This document shows positions 38,876 to 46,955 of a stretch of DNA of 64,000 nucleotides, one piece after another. Every line of letters starts with the position of its first letter. Position 1 is the first letter of the stretch. Under the pieces are notes generated by a model, which ran no database searches, was not told the DNA's origin, and was given only the letters and a program-made list of their open reading frames with translations. Made by a program: the position numbers and the translations under genes. The stretch comes from Sulfurimonas crateris (GTDB lineage: Bacteria > Campylobacterota > Campylobacteria > Campylobacterales > Sulfurimonadaceae): NCBI RefSeq assembly GCF_005217605.1, contig NZ_SZPX01000002.1, forward strand, positions 186,001-250,000, read 5' to 3'.

Positions 38876-40897
38876 ATGATTAAATCTCTATTGATCGAAA
38901 TTGGCGTTGAAGAGCTTCCGGCGATCCCGCTTTTAAAAGAGTTAAAAAATATTGAAAAAAAGTATGCTGATATTTTAGAGAAATATTCACTGCTGTTCGA
39001 GTTTGAATTCTACTACACTCCACGTCGTCTTGTTTTGTGGCACAGAGAGTTTAAAACACAGCAGGATGACAGCGTAGAGGAGTTTTTTGGAGCACCTCTT
39101 GAAGTCGCTTACAAAGAGGGCAAGCCTACACCTGCAGCTCTGGGCTTTGCGAAGAAGTGCGGCGTGGAGATAGAAGAGATCGGATCCGCTAAAAAGGGTG
39201 CGAAAGATGTGCTTTACTATAAAAAAGAGTTAAAAGGGGAGCCATCCGTACTTCTTCTTGAAAAGATCGTAAATGAGTGGATAAAATCTCTTGAGTTTGG
39301 AAAATCTATGAGATGGGGAAGCCTGAACGAGAGTTTTATCCGCCCGATTCGCTGGCTGAACGTGCTTTTTGGCGATGAGCTTGTAGATGTGGAGCTTTTT
39401 GGAGTCAGATCGAAAAAAGAGACTTTTGTACACCGCATAAGCAATTTTGACTCAGTAGCACTAAGCGGTGCAAAAGATTACTTTGAGAAACTGCAAGAGG
39501 GCGGGGTGACTCTTTTTCCACAGGTAAGACGCGAGGCTATTTTAGAGAATTTTTCAACTCTTGAGAAAGAGAACAATATCAAGATAGAGATAGATGGGGA
39601 TCTGCTTGATGAAGTAGTAGCAATAACAGAACATCCTACGGCAGTCCTAGGCTCGTTTGATGAGGCGTTCTTGGAACTTCCGCCTGAGGTCATTATCACT
39701 TCCATGAAAGAGCACCAGAGATATTTTCCTGTTTTCAAAGATGCTAAACTCTTAAACAAGTTCGTTGTGGTCACAAATGCCCTAACTAATGATTTTTCAA
39801 AAGTTATTGAGGGTAACGAGAAAGTTCTGCGTCCTCGTTTGGCAGATGCGCTCTTCTTCTATAACAATGACCTGAGAAATGGACTAAGCACTGAGGGGCT
39901 TGAAAAAGTAGTCTTTATGAAAGGACTTGGGAGCGTAGCTGATAAGATAGAGCGTGAGAGAAAAATAGCCAATATCCTGTTTGATATCTATAAACCAAAA
40001 GATTCAAGCAAAGAGATGCTTGATCGTGCAATAAGCTTGGCAAAAGCTGACCTGATGAGCGAGATGGTATATGAGTTTACGGAGCTTCAAGGGCTTATGG
40101 GCTACTACTACGCTAAAAAATCAGGCCAGAGCGATGAAGTGGCAATTGCCATAAAAGAGCAGTATCTGCCTGACGGTGAAGATAGCGCGCTCCCTACAAC
40201 TGTTATGAGCGCAATAGTCGCTATGAGCTTGAAGCTAGATACTCTTTTGGGTCTCTTTAGCGTAAATCAGATCCCGACAGGCTCACGTGACCCTTTTGCT
40301 CTGCGCCGCGCCGTGAACGGTCTTATAAGAATCACAAAAGAGCATAACTTGGAGTTTGACATAGTTGGTACTGTAAAGCTTTTAAGCAGGGAGTATGCAG
40401 AGTTTGACCTCTCTAAACTTGAAGCATTTTTCCTGGAGAGAGTAAGACAGTACTTCAAGGTAAATCCTTCTATTGTCGAGGCAGTGCTTGCAAGCGGCGA
40501 GAGAGAGCTTCTAAAAATAGGCAAAAAAATAGAGGCACTTGAGAGTATGGTCTCAAGTGAAGGATTTAGCGACTCCTTCTCAACCTTTAAAAGAGTTGCA
40601 AACATAACTAAAGATATTGAGATGTCGGGTGAGTTTAGAGTTGATGCAACGCTCTTTGAAGAGAGTGCGGAAGAGGCTCTTTTTACAAGGTACAGTGAGG
40701 TTAGTTCAGCTAAATATGCCTCTTACGAAGAGGAGCTTGATGCTCTTTTGGGACTTAAACCTGAACTGGATAAATTCTTTGACGATGTTATGGTAAATGC
40801 AGAAGATAAGAGAGTCAGAAACAACAGAAAAGCTCTTGTTGCATCTATATACAAGAGTATTTTAAATATTGCGGATATTAAAGAGGTGAGCGTTTAA
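38876..40897 (+). CDS. glyS: glycine-tRNA ligase beta subunit
   Basis: 673 residues, full length. It starts LLIEIGVEELPA, the family signature, with YYTPRRLVL, MRWGSLNESFIRPIRWL, and VIITSMKEHQRYFPV in the core. The C-terminal region includes LFSVNQIPTGSRDPFALRRA and the anticodon-binding-like end (FFDDVMVNAEDKRVRNNR). It works with the alpha subunit (GlyQ, not in the window) to charge tRNA-Gly. Its last 4 bases overlap the convergent unknown gene. Confidence 0.96.
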   Translation: MIKSLLIEIGVEELPAIPLLKELKNIEKKYADILEKYSLLFEFEFYYTPRRLVLWHREFKTQQDDSVEEFFGAPLEVAYKEGKPTPAALGFAKKCGVEIEEIGSAKKGAKDVLYYKKELKGEPSVLLLEKIVNEWIKSLEFGKSMRWGSLNESFIRPIRWLNVLFGDELVDVELFGVRSKKETFVHRISNFDSVALSGAKDYFEKLQEGGVTLFPQVRREAILENFSTLEKENNIKIEIDGDLLDEVVAITEHPTAVLGSFDEAFLELPPEVIITSMKEHQRYFPVFKDAKLLNKFVVVTNALTNDFSKVIEGNEKVLRPRLADALFFYNNDLRNGLSTEGLEKVVFMKGLGSVADKIERERKIANILFDIYKPKDSSKEMLDRAISLAKADLMSEMVYEFTELQGLMGYYYAKKSGQSDEVAIAIKEQYLPDGEDSALPTTVMSAIVAMSLKLDTLLGLFSVNQIPTGSRDPFALRRAVNGLIRITKEHNLEFDIVGTVKLLSREYAEFDLSKLEAFFLERVRQYFKVNPSIVEAVLASGERELLKIGKKIEALESMVSSEGFSDSFSTFKRVANITKDIEMSGEFRVDATLFEESAEEALFTRYSEVSSAKYASYEEELDALLGLKPELDKFFDDVMVNAEDKRVRNNRKALVASIYKSILNIADIKEVSV

Positions 40898-42411
40898 GCT
40901 ATCTCCTCAATAAGTGTCTTCTTTGAAGTAAGAGCTTTGAGAAGAGAGTTTCTTATGGAGAGGTAGGCACTTTTGTTTTGTGCTAGAATCTTCTCATCTC
41001 TTCTCTCTTGCCTCTTAAGCGCATCTAACTCTTTTTTGATGTTGTTGTACTTAAGTATCTGAGACTTACTCGCCATATTTAATGTGAGTCTGTTCTTCTC
41101 ATCTTTTTTCATCTGTATCTCATTTTGGATATCTCTGACTTCACTTTTAAGACCTTGTGCTTCATTAGGATCTTTTGATGAATCAAGAGAGTCGGTGTAG
41201 ATATTGAGCCTTTTTATCGCATAGATTATGTTTTGAGAAACTTTTTCTATCTCTTTTGCGATCTTGGCATTGTGCTCGATAGGTGAGAGAGAGTTTATAT
41301 AATACTCCGAAATAGCCTCTTCAAGCTCCTCTTTTTGCTCTTTTATAGTCTCAAGCGATATTTCTGTCTTTACGTATATTTTGACTATGGACATCATAGA
41401 TGCAACGTTCCACTTAAGCCCGTTAGATGCTTCGATCTCAGGAACTCTGTATTTTTGTCCGTCTAGTACAACTATGTTTAAAGAGTAGTACTTTAAAAAA
41501 TCTATAATATATCTGTTTGATGCACTGAGTTCGGAGAGTATAAGATTTGCGATATGGTTAAATACCTCTTTGAAGTGTATTCTAAATACGTAGCCTGAAA
41601 ACCCTTTAAAAAAGTCATCATTTCTGTCAAACGTGTTTATAAGATGTTCTGTAACGATAGATTGTATAAGAGAAAAAGCGTATTTCTCATATGTCATGTT
41701 GTCTATTTTTTTATCCAGCATATAAGTGTCTACAAACTGCTCTGCGACCAGATAGAAGAAGTTTTTGTTCTCCTCTTTTAGAAAAAAGTTGTTGTAAAAT
41801 GAGCTTAACTCATCTTCATCAAGCCCGTTGTATCTGTTTGCAATAGTGTTTTTCTCTTCATCTGAGACTTTTTTTACACTCTTGTCATCAAATAGTTTTA
41901 TAAATATCTGTGAGTTTTTTATGATGATAATGTCACTGTCGTTAAGCTCAAACGCTTCTCTAATAGCATACTTTAAAAGCTCTTTTTTGTTTATCTCTTC
42001 ATTGTTGATCTTGTTTACAAAGTGTGTCAGTTGAAGTGTGAGCTCTTTTTTTAGGCAAATTAGGTCATCTTTGCCGTTATAATTGTACTCTATTAGATCT
42101 TCGTTTTTATCGATTATCTCAATTATTGCGTCTAAGTTTATACTATCTTTTGGCTCTGTTTTATAAGGTATCAGCTTTACTTTGAGCTCTTTTTCGCTCA
42201 CTTTGAACATCGTACACCCTATAGGCTCAAAATGCTCTCTTATTGCGACTTTTACCTCTTGTTGTATCTCTTTGTCAAGTAGTGTATATGATTCAAAATT
42301 TTTATCCAAAAAAGAGAGGAGTTTTTCATTGTGCTCGTCACTCCATTTGAAATCTACCGTGGGAGTACCAAGAGATGTTTTTACATGCGTTTTTAGTTTT
42401 TGCATCAGCAT
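40894..42411 (-). CDS. unrecognised 505-residue protein under c-di-GMP riboswitch control
   Basis: A cytoplasmic protein: no signal peptide or membrane segment. Residues 1-330 are a mixed alpha-rich region with no motif I recognise; about 335-490 form a coiled coil rich in Lys/Glu/Leu (KEQKEELEEAI, QNEIQMKKDEKNRLTL). The ATG at 42411 lies 1 base after the stop of a 16-codon leader frame and has only a weak GGCGG ahead of it; ATG 42405 is an alternative. A GEMM-type aptamer sits about 135 bases upstream, so expression should follow c-di-GMP. A structural or motility-related effector is possible, but nothing in the sequence fixes it. Confidence 0.8.
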   Translation of the reverse strand: MLMQKLKTHVKTSLGTPTVDFKWSDEHNEKLLSFLDKNFESYTLLDKEIQQEVKVAIREHFEPIGCTMFKVSEKELKVKLIPYKTEPKDSINLDAIIEIIDKNEDLIEYNYNGKDDLICLKKELTLQLTHFVNKINNEEINKKELLKYAIREAFELNDSDIIIIKNSQIFIKLFDDKSVKKVSDEEKNTIANRYNGLDEDELSSFYNNFFLKEENKNFFYLVAEQFVDTYMLDKKIDNMTYEKYAFSLIQSIVTEHLINTFDRNDDFFKGFSGYVFRIHFKEVFNHIANLILSELSASNRYIIDFLKYYSLNIVVLDGQKYRVPEIEASNGLKWNVASMMSIVKIYVKTEISLETIKEQKEELEEAISEYYINSLSPIEHNAKIAKEIEKVSQNIIYAIKRLNIYTDSLDSSKDPNEAQGLKSEVRDIQNEIQMKKDEKNRLTLNMASKSQILKYNNIKKELDALKRQERRDEKILAQNKSAYLSIRNSLLKALTSKKTLIEEIA

Positions 42412-42412
42412 T

Positions 42413-42463
42413 TTATAAAACCGCCATATTTGAGAAGAGACTTAGAACAAAAAAACAAGACAT
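42413..42463 (-). CDS. 16-residue leader ORF between riboswitch and unknown gene
   Basis: ATG five bases after TTGGAG; encodes MSCFFVLSLFSNMAVL and stops 1 base before the ATG of the 505-residue gene. It has a better ribosome site than that gene, so the two are probably translationally coupled and the leader may relay riboswitch control. Confidence 0.45.
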   Translation of the reverse strand: MSCFFVLSLFSNMAVL

Positions 42464-42546
42464 AACACTCCAAGAAAAATATATAAATGACTTATTGAAA
42501 AACAGACTCAGATGCGGTAAACAAAACATATGCAGAATATGATAAG

Positions 42547-42629
42547 TAAGTTGCAATCCGACCATCTTGTTCTACACAAGACTCGTGACTTTCCGTCCCT
42601 ATTTCACAATAAGTTTGGCTTTAGACTTA
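42547..42629 (-). ncRNA. c-di-GMP-I (GEMM) riboswitch aptamer
   Basis: On the minus strand, P1 pairs UAAGU (42629-42625) with ACUUA (42551-42547). AAAGCCAAAC is followed by P2, CUUAUU-GUGA-AAUAGG, closed by a GNRA tetraloop. Then come GGACGGAAAGUC and P3 arms GUCUUGU and ACAAGAU around a GUAGA loop, ending GGUCGGAUUGC. This order and the key words (CAAAC, GNRA, GGACG-AAAG, GGAUUGC) match the GEMM-I consensus as I know it. It lies just after a promoter-like TATAGT and 84 bases before the leader ORF. No clear terminator was seen, so translational control is more likely. Confidence 0.85.
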
Positions 42630-42643
42630 GTAAATTTTATTTT

Positions 42644-42649
42644 ACTATA
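42644..42649 (-). promoter_or_regulatory. -10 element ahead of the riboswitch
   Basis: TATAGT on the minus strand, which would start transcription about 8 bases before the aptamer. This is consistent with the aptamer lying at the very 5' end of its own transcript. Confidence 0.4.
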
Positions 42650-42692: not shown

Positions 42693-43478
42693 TTAATCTT
42701 CTTTGCTTGCCTTGCTCAGTATCGCTGCTATATTTGAGTGTCCATTCTCTTGTGCATGCATAAGCGGAGTTTTGCCATCGGCATCTTTTGTCTCTATATC
42801 GGCACCGCTGTTGATTAGGAGTTCTACGATCTCTTCAAAGCCGTATTTTGCAGCCAGATGGATCGCACAGTTGCCTGTAGAGCTTTTAAAATTGACATCA
42901 CTTCCATGTTCGATGAGTGATTTTACAAGTTTGTAGTCTCCGCAACATGAGCTTGGAAGCAGCAGGGTGTACCTATCTTCAAAAATCTCATCTGGATTTT
43001 GGCTGTTTTTTAGATAGTGTAAAATTGCATTATACTGCTGTGTATTTGTTTTTCTGCATGATTTTGACTCTCTGTTTGAGAGTTTTTTGCAAATCCTTAA
43101 AATTGTCTCACGTCTGTCGCTCTCATCCAGCTCTGCTCTTTGGTGCTCTATCTGCTCTTCATCTTTTTTATTTATAAACAGAAATGGAAGATAAATAAGA
43201 GAGGGTATAAAAAATGGGATAAACCACTGCTCTTTGATAGTTTGGCTCATAAGTGTGTAAACTACTAAGGGGGTTAGTAGGAGAATCAAAACTCCAAAAA
43301 TTGCATTTTTAAAAGTTTTTCTTAATTTAAAAGGAACTCTTGGAAGGTGCTCTTTGGAACTCTCATCTTCAGATCTTACAAAATGGATGTTTTTAAAAGC
43401 CTCAAAGATTGAGGATGCCCAAAACCATCCTAGAAAAAAGAGTAGAATAAGAACTGCTATATTTTGAAGATCATTCAA
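42693..43478 (-). CDS. membrane-anchored ankyrin-repeat protein
   Basis: 261 residues: an N-terminal membrane helix (about 7-24), two more at about 52-71 and 82-100, a charged linker, and three C-terminal ankyrin repeats (about 165-255) with SCCGDYKLVKSLIEHGSDVNFK, GNCAIHLAAKYGFEEIVELL and DGKTPLMHAQENGHSNIAAIL. The repeats would face the cytoplasm and bind a partner protein. AAAGGAG precedes the ATG. Target unknown. Confidence 0.82.
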   Translation of the reverse strand: MNDLQNIAVLILLFFLGWFWASSIFEAFKNIHFVRSEDESSKEHLPRVPFKLRKTFKNAIFGVLILLLTPLVVYTLMSQTIKEQWFIPFFIPSLIYLPFLFINKKDEEQIEHQRAELDESDRRETILRICKKLSNRESKSCRKTNTQQYNAILHYLKNSQNPDEIFEDRYTLLLPSSCCGDYKLVKSLIEHGSDVNFKSSTGNCAIHLAAKYGFEEIVELLINSGADIETKDADGKTPLMHAQENGHSNIAAILSKASKED

Positions 43479-43513: not shown

Positions 43514-44248
43514 CTAGGATGTTTTAATTATCTGCGGAGGAAATTTTGAGAACGCTTTTTTAAAAGCATTTGCTCTTACGTCTTTGAACTTTCCAGTTGC
43601 GATAGGAGGCAGAAAGTATGCTCCCTCTTCGCTCTCTTGGGCATCATGATTGTTGTCATACATAAATGCTATCTCTTTGCCGAGTTTCTTTGCCTGAGCC
43701 GAGAGATTTCTGGCATAAGCGATGATATTTTTGTGATGTCTGTCAAACTTGTTACCTGAGCCAAAAAAGACAAATTTACCGCTTAGACGGATATTTAGAT
43801 AGTCATGGTAGTTAAGCTCTCTGTCGTATCTCGTGAGCTGATTGCTCGTATATTTGTCCAAATCCGCATCGAACTCCTCTAAAATAGGCGTTGGCTCTAT
43901 ATTTGGCTTGTTGATGTTAAAGAGATATTTTATCTCTATAAGTTTGCCTCTGTATCCATCTTTTATGGCAGAAGCAAATAGATTACAGTTGTTGTCGAAG
44001 TTTAATTCACAAAATTTGCCGTCAAACTCATAACCCTGAACGGCAAGCTTTGTGTTGGTGTTGTAGCCGATAGGAGCAATAGTTGGGTTGTATAAAAATA
44101 TAGTTCCAATTACAGATTTGCGCTTTTTGCTTAGCAATTCCTCTAGTTTTTCTATATCTATTACTTCGTTATCCTCTGGTATATAGATATACTGCTCTAC
44201 TAGATACTCTATATCAAAACTTGTTAAAAATTTTCCAAATGCTTGCAA
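43514..44248 (-). CDS. hypothetical protein, 244 residues
   Basis: TTG start after GAGGGT. No signal peptide or membrane helix. It has mixed alpha/beta character with FVFFGSGNKFDRHHKNIIAYARNLSAQAKKLGKEIAFMYDNN near the C-terminal third, suggesting a nucleotide- or nuclease-like fold with conserved-looking Asp/His residues. I do not recognise the family. It stands 35 bp upstream of the ankyrin gene on the same strand and may be co-transcribed with it. Confidence 0.65.
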   Translation of the reverse strand: MQAFGKFLTSFDIEYLVEQYIYIPEDNEVIDIEKLEELLSKKRKSVIGTIFLYNPTIAPIGYNTNTKLAVQGYEFDGKFCELNFDNNCNLFASAIKDGYRGKLIEIKYLFNINKPNIEPTPILEEFDADLDKYTSNQLTRYDRELNYHDYLNIRLSGKFVFFGSGNKFDRHHKNIIAYARNLSAQAKKLGKEIAFMYDNNHDAQESEEGAYFLPPIATGKFKDVRANAFKKAFSKFPPQIIKTS

Positions 44249-45137: not shown

Positions 45138-46955
45138 ATGCATAGAGGCTTAAAAAATTTATATCTTATTTTTATCTTTTTTGCACTGTTTGCCCAGAGC
45201 AGTTTTTCAGATATTATAAAGGTGGATGGAAAGACACAAAAGGTAGGAGTTACTAAATTCTCTGAGCTTTTTATAGATGATCAAAGCCACTTCTCATACG
45301 AAGATGTCTCAGAAAATACATTTGGAGACAACTTTAAATCCTCAAACTCTACTGCAGTCTCATCAAAGACCCCAAGAGAGACAATATGGCTTAGATTTAA
45401 CATTGTAAACTCAAGCAACACTACTTTTTCGGGCAAGCTTGAGATACCTATAGTTTGGCTAAATAAAGTCGAAGTATATTTAAGAACTCCAAGCAAAGAT
45501 GCAAACAGAACTTTTGATACGCTAAAACTCTCTGATATAAAAGAGGTTAACGCAAGGTCTTTTTTTATTCCTCTTGAGATGAGCGCACTTCAAAGCTCCA
45601 CTATTTATATCAAGGCTCAGGGCGTAAACAAAATGGCATTTGCACCTAAGCTCTACTCGCTTGAGAAGGCGGAGTCACGCACTATATATATCGCTATGCT
45701 AAACGGTGCTTTGATCGGCATACTACTTGTTATATTTTTGTATAATCTAAGCAACTATTTGACTCTCAAAGATAAAAACTATCTCTTTTATCTCTACTAT
45801 CTAGTCGGTCTGCTCTTCTTGGTGGGCACATACTACGGATATAACATTCAGCTTCTGTGGGACAGTAGCTATGAGTTTAACGAGAATATTTACTACCCGA
45901 TAGTCGCATTTAACTTTTTAACTGCCCTGCTTCTTAGTAGAAACTTTTTAAAAGTCGAGAGTCAATCTGCAAAAATTGACAAATATCTGTTAATTCTGGC
46001 AGGGTTGTCTGTTCTTCTTGGTATATTTGGACTTATCTTTGGCAGCTGCAACAGTTCTGCTTATGCAACTCTTATCTTCACGCTTGTAAACTTTATATTT
46101 TTGGTATCAATCTCTGCTATTTCTATAAAGCAAAATATCTCTGGGAGTGGCTACTTCTTGCTGGCATGGCTCTTCCTGTCGGTTGGAAATCTGGTTCTTA
46201 TCGGTTTGGTCTTGGGCTTTATTAAGTATAGCGATTTGGTATATGACATATATGCTGTTTTGGTCGTGTTAAATATTCTGATGATCTCGTTTGCAATGGT
46301 TGAACGCATCAGGGATGAGGAGTCCCAGTGTGAATTTAAGGTGCAAAAAGAGCATGAAGTAGCAAGTAAGCTCAATATCTCAAAAAAAGAACTTAGAGAG
46401 TTAAATGAAAAACTTCAGCGTAAACTTGCAAGACAGGAGAAGGAGCTTGAGACAAAAAGCAAAGAGTCTCAGATGTTATCAAATAAAGATGAAGTTACTA
46501 AGCTCTACAATAAAAGTAAGCTTGAAGAGATCCTCACAAACGAGCTTCACAGAGCAAAAAGATATGACTACGAATTTAGTGTAATTGTTGCTAACATTGA
46601 CGGAATGAAAGAGATAAACGATACGCACGGTTATGAAGTTGGAAACTCTGTAATGAAAGAGATGGGTGAACTCTTTATTCGCCATATCCGCTACTTAGAT
46701 ACGGTGGGTAGATGGAGTGATAACGAGTATCTTATAATATGTCCACAAACAGGCGGAAAACACGCATTTACGGCGGCGGAGCACCTTCAAAGCTATGTAG
46801 AGAGAAATAAGTTCTTTTTTATAGGTAAAGCAACTGCCAGTTTTGGAGTTACGGATTGTCAGCCTGACGACACTCTTCAAGAGCTTCTAAAAAGAGCCTA
46901 TGAGGCTCTTGCAAAAGCGAAAGAGGGTGGAAAGAACAGAGTCGAAATACTATAA
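45138..46955 (+). CDS. 7TMR-DISM receptor with degenerate GGDEF domain
   Basis: 605 residues: signal segment, periplasmic 7TMR-DISMED2-type sensor (about 30-180, with TIWLRFNIVNSS), seven membrane helices (about 188-395), a coiled coil (about 405-455), then a GGDEF fold (about 455-605). The GGDEF active site is replaced by RWSDNEYLII, and the metal Asp region reads VANIDGMKEIND. Synthesis of c-di-GMP is therefore unlikely, and the domain may bind nucleotide or partners. It probably senses carbohydrates or other envelope ligands. AAGGAAG precedes the ATG. Confidence 0.87.
   Translation: MHRGLKNLYLIFIFFALFAQSSFSDIIKVDGKTQKVGVTKFSELFIDDQSHFSYEDVSENTFGDNFKSSNSTAVSSKTPRETIWLRFNIVNSSNTTFSGKLEIPIVWLNKVEVYLRTPSKDANRTFDTLKLSDIKEVNARSFFIPLEMSALQSSTIYIKAQGVNKMAFAPKLYSLEKAESRTIYIAMLNGALIGILLVIFLYNLSNYLTLKDKNYLFYLYYLVGLLFLVGTYYGYNIQLLWDSSYEFNENIYYPIVAFNFLTALLLSRNFLKVESQSAKIDKYLLILAGLSVLLGIFGLIFGSCNSSAYATLIFTLVNFIFLVSISAISIKQNISGSGYFLLAWLFLSVGNLVLIGLVLGFIKYSDLVYDIYAVLVVLNILMISFAMVERIRDEESQCEFKVQKEHEVASKLNISKKELRELNEKLQRKLARQEKELETKSKESQMLSNKDEVTKLYNKSKLEEILTNELHRAKRYDYEFSVIVANIDGMKEINDTHGYEVGNSVMKEMGELFIRHIRYLDTVGRWSDNEYLIICPQTGGKHAFTAAEHLQSYVERNKFFFIGKATASFGVTDCQPDDTLQELLKRAYEALAKAKEGGKNRVEIL

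Follow-up and report, generated by a model that had tools for sequence, protein, structure and literature searches.

The minus strand of a 64,000-nt stretch of Sulfurimonas crateris DNA (the window) carries a c-di-GMP-I riboswitch aptamer, and it is probable that this riboswitch has a promoter of its own and, by means of a coupled leader ORF, controls a coiled-coil protein tied to the c-di-GMP network. Our computational analysis established the presence and conservation of the aptamer, its association with the gene, and where the leader lies and in which relatives it recurs. The riboswitch class to which the aptamer belongs is already known. What is new is the target family, the leader arrangement behind the aptamer and the fact that the family is tied to c-di-GMP in two ways. 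The features of the locus are as follows (positions in the window).

42639..42649, minus strand: inferred promoter -10-like element TATAGTAAAAT; relatives have a TATNGTANAAT or TATAAT box directly upstream of the aptamer
42549..42629, minus strand: c-di-GMP-I (GEMM-I) riboswitch aptamer, RF01051 covariance match
42619, minus strand: G predicted to contact the ligand, corresponding to G20 of Vc2 (model position 11) and unchanged across 14 homologues
42592, minus strand: predicted A47 equivalent, invariant alignment column 38
42553, minus strand: predicted C92 equivalent, invariant alignment column 77
42490..42505, minus strand: anti-P2 element CTGTTTTTCAATAAGT, tentative expression platform, complementary to the P2 region of the aptamer
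42468..42471, minus strand: Shine-Dalgarno (SD) sequence GGAG preceding the leader ORF, duplex energy with the anti-SD -5.9 kcal/mol
42413..42463, minus strand: leader ORF of 16 codons, MSCFFVLSLFSNMAVL and stop, the stop lying 1 nt ahead of the gene's ATG at 42411
42421..42425, minus strand: weak SD-like GGCGG of the gene, within the leader ORF, predicted to pair with an upstream ACCGC
40894..42411, minus strand: ORF of the 505-aa uncharacterised protein, helical N-terminal region 1-335 and coiled coil 336-495

The aptamer and its link to the gene

The sequence-only reading had proposed a GEMM-I aptamer on the minus strand, and covariance search confirmed it. RF01051 matched 42629-42549 with 58.3 bits against a gathering cut-off of 35 (E 8.3e-9), the match covered the entire model (1-87 of 87), and both P3 and P2 with its GUGA loop were found. 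A genome-wide search showed that it is the sole GEMM-I element of this Sulfurimonas genome. The c-di-GMP-I-GGC model (RF03167) reached 54.8 bits at the aptamer, which is under its own gathering cut-off of 59. When 14 aptamer homologues were aligned, 98.4% of the helix cells were paired and 7 of the 22 helix pairs showed two-sided changes; sliding the structure by 1-3 columns as a control left only 0-2 two-sided pairs.

Geobacter GEMM-I variants for cAMP-GMP (3',3'-cGAMP) have A at position 20. They share the aptamer architecture with the window set, which however has G at this position in all 14 homologues; this argues for c-di-GMP, and cAMP-GMP was rejected as the ligand. In Vc2, the bases G20, A47 and C92 contact c-di-GMP (PMC4744006). 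The Vc2 numbering was carried onto the aptamer by alignment, and the equivalents of all three bases were unchanged in 14 of 14 homologues. From these positions we infer that the ligand of the window aptamer is c-di-GMP.

The link to the gene was examined in 200 genomes of the same family as the window genome. GEMM-I elements are present in 62 of them, and 75 encode a homologue of the 505-aa protein. An aptamer stands 67-137 nt ahead of an orthologue on the same strand in 13 genomes, whereas random placement would give 0.003, so the link is real. A fourteenth case (L069) was found by covariance search and a fifteenth (L122) was spotted by eye. Both the riboswitch identity proposed earlier and the link of the riboswitch to this gene are thus strongly supported by the sequence comparison. 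L062, with 81% full-length identity the closest relative, has lost both riboswitch and leader, and another relative (L066) has a broken leader with an intact gene, so neither element is indispensable.

Other aptamers and neighbours were noted on the way. The family's other c-di-GMP-I aptamers (L002-L030) mostly stand ahead of secreted-looking or lipoprotein-like ORFs, unlike the cytosolic 505-aa protein. Two close-set aptamer pairs, possible tandem riboswitches, occur in a related genus (G025, contig C1, 1936859-1939620, partly L004). Directly upstream of the window riboswitch, 42696-43478 (minus strand) encodes an ankyrin-repeat protein that looks membrane-anchored and has relatives in L063, L066, L067 and L069. 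At 43517-44248 (minus strand) there is a 244-aa protein for which Pfam and NCBIfam gave no match and which is conserved beside the riboswitch gene in 11 of the 32 loci compared.

The 505-aa protein

The protein had been described as unrecognised, and our searches agreed. No match was found in Pfam, NCBIfam, PHROG or PDB sequences; the sole trace was a sub-threshold DUF3870 (E 0.043), and Pfam and NCBIfam gave no GGDEF, EAL, PilZ or HD domain. The AlphaFold model (pLDDT 87.9) has helical and mixed N-terminal parts followed by the coiled coil of residues 336-495. Foldseek returned no match with E < 0.001 for either the full model or residues 1-347. With VIA-align, the full model was matched in its coiled coil (Z up to 10.9 over 75 residues) and the N-terminal part yielded weak matches (best Z 5.5), while a profile search of PDB sequences gave only designed or generic coiled coils. 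Since the structure matches were weak or limited to the coiled coil, no known fold was assigned.

Short homologues start near residue 90, so the first 85 residues form an optional module. Among 249 genomes drawn across the phylum, 3 weak matches were found outside the family to which the window genome belongs. The 505-aa protein is a cytosolic protein of an unnamed, mostly Sulfurimonadaceae family.

Likely promoter and candidate expression platforms

The aptamer had been proposed to start at its own promoter. A TATNGTANAAT or TATAAT box stands directly upstream of the aptamer in the relatives that were read, and its recurrence makes a promoter at this place likely. A sigma-70 consensus scan gave no promoter on the minus strand, so this part of the earlier proposal is supported by the relatives and not by the scan.

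Between the aptamer and the leader, the anti-P2 element is a candidate platform. The duplex of P2 with the spacer reached -13.3 kcal/mol in the window, and none of 300 shuffles was as strong. This pairing appears in the free minimum-energy fold of the window RNA, where the fold that pairs the P2 region with 42505-42490 is predicted to be favoured by 7.3 kcal/mol. Of the relatives, G141 also exceeded all 300 shuffles and G139 and G131 had strong pairing, but most did not. By general logic alone, the ligand would dissolve this alternative fold, for which reason we lean slightly, and on a weak basis, to c-di-GMP turning the gene ON.

Two other platforms were considered. In the first, RNA further downstream would hide the SD before the first start codon, depending on whether ligand is bound. 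Pairing of SD and spacer did exceed shuffles in G105 (P 0.03) and G131 (P 0.04), but neither the window (P 0.34) nor most relatives showed a significant excess, and thermodynamic folding left the leader SD about equally accessible with and without the aptamer enforced. SD sequestration was rejected as a general signal from folding and shuffles in the window and relatives, and we consider such a translational platform unlikely.

In the second, the platform would be a transcription terminator and c-di-GMP would switch the gene on. Without ligand, the 3' strand of the aptamer (GGAUUGC) would pair with a downstream GCAUCUG ahead of a U-run. The pairing is present in the window fold, and a similar one, GCAUCC and then AAAUUUUUU, can be read in L065. 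It was however not seen in other relatives and, as strand:spacer pairing, is not above shuffles (P 0.13 in the window and 0.26 in L065), and the scan found no terminator-like site. The negative scan and the shuffle result led us to reject an intrinsic terminator, and this platform is quite unlikely. The expression platform is unrecognised in the window, as has likewise been reported for Vc1 (PMC4744006).

Leader ORF and probable translational coupling

The 16-codon ORF that had been read as ending 1 base before the gene is indeed there (leader 42463-42413, gene ATG 42411), and the coordinates and layout given in the earlier reading are correct. Its ribosome site had also been called strong and that of the gene weak, which was only partly borne out: the SD duplex energies in the window are similar (-5.9 kcal/mol for the leader and -6.0 kcal/mol for the gene), but the gene's GGCGG contains a mismatch when aligned with the anti-SD, and folding predicts it to be partly occupied in a helix. 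The helix with the pre-leader RNA that would mask GGCGG had a P of 0.03 in the window and of 0.11-0.72 in relatives.

The leader arrangement was found in four genomes, with 16 codons in the window and 15 codons in L063, L064 and L067. The latter three have an SD and a 1-nt gap to the gene, like the window. A coupled ORF with an SD arose in 0.7% of dinucleotide shuffles of the window spacer, and the shuffled spacers of the four genomes yielded the arrangement in 0.3-0.7% each. The leader peptides differ among the four genomes, and that of the window is not recognisably homologous to those of the other clade. Between L063 and L067, the leader is ungapped with 80% identity, although the preceding spacer has 56% identity and 21 gapped positions.

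Leaderless relatives have the gene's own SD and start at the position of the leader start, 59-79 nt from the aptamer; the leader start itself lies 41-85 nt from the aptamer and so spans this range. In the tree, the leader-bearing genes fall into two neighbouring clades with non-bearers interspersed, which is compatible with one gain and later losses of the leader. We also considered the leader as a duplicate of the gene's start, which was not convincing (P 0.04-0.49).

One of the two nearest relatives (L065, 1735-3005) has a deletion after which the leader's ATG-TCT runs in frame into the protein at about residue 81. Everything else of the leader is gone, as are the gene's first 80 codons, and the product is a riboswitch-controlled short form resembling short homologues elsewhere. 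Provided that the metagenome assembly is correct, this fusion speaks for the leader start being functional.

An SD, an ORF, a stop a few nucleotides before the next start and retention in relatives, by which a coupled leader is recognised, were all found. With the recurrent geometry, the ungapped leader of L063 and L067 and the start fusion of L065, translational coupling from leader to gene is the best reading of these sequences, and we hold it with moderate confidence. The earlier suggestion that translation is passed from leader to gene is therefore supported by comparative genomics, short of proof.

The riboswitch could also be real and control the gene while the leader is incidental, the gene being translated from its own weak site or by independent loading. 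The comparable duplex energy of the gene's SD-like site in the window, the broken leader beside the intact gene in L066, and the peptide sequence, which is not conserved between the two sub-clades, fit this alternative. It does not explain so readily the identical geometry (SD, 15-16 codons, 1-nt gap) in four genomes, the leader that stays ungapped in a gapped flank, or the use of the leader start as the gene's start in L065. We regard an incidental leader as rather unlikely.

Under the preferred reading of a coupled leader, a c-di-GMP-I riboswitch with its own promoter would govern the expression of the cytosolic coiled-coil protein. In the window clade, a short leader ORF would have taken the start position and SD that the gene uses in relatives. 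Because the leader occupies this former start and SD, ribosomes would load at the leader, and they would reach the gene by termination and re-start across the 1-nt gap (TAAAATG). Ligand on the aptamer would then alter how often leader mRNA is completed or loaded. Several observations weigh against this explanation: the state of L062 and L066, the unrelated leader peptides of the two clades, and folding that yields no clear ligand-dependent change in leader-SD accessibility.

Gene neighbourhood and c-di-GMP signalling

Homologues of the 505-aa protein were found in operons with siaB, siaC, an HD gene, and GGDEF or SpoIIE genes (L104, L102, L108, L109, L105, L106, L096 and L093). In 8 loci a SiaC gene precedes a homologue by no more than 5 kb, where chance would give 0.06. 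Other homologues stand beside GGDEF-EAL genes (L077, L085 and L087), and in L073 an aptamer, a homologue, a response regulator and a histidine kinase follow one another, the kinase pair having been identified in L068. The occurrence in SiaABC-type operons and beside GGDEF/EAL genes suggests that the 505-aa protein is probably an undescribed component of the c-di-GMP network.

SiaC activates SiaD via binding to the helical stalk of SiaD, and the authors proposed that DUF1987 proteins modulate adjacent proteins (PMC8457831). An RSDKxQ-like stalk motif is common to the HD and GGDEF neighbours and is missing from the 505-aa protein, so it does not just add one more SiaC target of this kind. Most of the homologues linked to Sia genes are distant paralogues (28-38% identity). 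No SiaC was found in the window genome, which has 37 GGDEF domains, and the window gene lies outside any Sia-type operon. The distance of these paralogues and the missing SiaC also count against the explanation preferred above. Separately, the SiaABC-type operons of L104, L102, L108 and L109 contain an added HD-domain protein with RSDKxQ, a possible further SiaC target.

The protein had been nominated as a new c-di-GMP effector. Genes under riboswitches usually encode outputs, not receptors. For the protein itself to be a new direct c-di-GMP receptor, a novel binding mode would be needed, for which the lack of any known domain leaves room, and the family is tied to c-di-GMP by riboswitch and operon neighbours. 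No c-di-GMP-binding domain was recognised, however, and together with the usual role of riboswitch-governed genes this makes a receptor very unlikely. What stands of the nomination is a network output, as indicated by the SiaABC-type operons and GGDEF/EAL neighbours, and the 505-aa protein is better termed a c-di-GMP-controlled network component than an effector.

Taken more broadly, the family might be a new one that occurs in SiaABC operons and also stand-alone under a c-di-GMP riboswitch, with the window clade relaying control by a coupled leader; this is a tentative proposal, somewhat more doubtful than probable.

Comparison with known systems

The window aptamer resembles Vc2 and Vc1 of Vibrio cholerae (RF01051) in its full-length match, P2 and P3, the G20, A47 and C92 equivalents and its position in a 5' UTR. 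It differs in its target, an unnamed cytosolic coiled-coil protein, and in the leader ORF between aptamer and gene. Leader-peptide translational coupling as known in general (e.g. overlapping uORFs) likewise has a short ORF, an SD and a stop 1 nt before the next start, but the window leader sits behind a c-di-GMP riboswitch.

As in the SiaABCD module of Pseudomonas aeruginosa, which combines a partner switch with a diguanylate cyclase, genes coding for SiaB, SiaC, SpoIIE, HD and GGDEF proteins adjoin homologues of the 505-aa protein, and a long helical stalk is common to SiaD and, in the AlphaFold model, the 505-aa protein. The differences are that the window gene is outside such an operon, in a genome without SiaC, and that its protein has neither GGDEF nor RSDKxQ. 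In the literature open without subscription, we found no paper that brings Sulfurimonas, c-di-GMP and riboswitch together, none that connects a c-di-GMP riboswitch with Epsilonproteobacteria, and none combining riboswitch, leader peptide, translational coupling and c-di-GMP.

One unnamed Sulfurimonas protein family joins a c-di-GMP riboswitch with SiaABC partner-switch operons, and it offers a concrete target for what c-di-GMP controls in Sulfurimonas. Natural variants in which the riboswitch or the leader has been lost or the leader start is fused to the gene, together with leaderless relatives, form a series in which a leader relay of the riboswitch decision can be tested. Near the riboswitch locus, the window also encodes a 7TMR-DISM-GGDEF diguanylate cyclase (45138-46952, plus strand), which is found near it in L064, L066, L067 and L079 as well.
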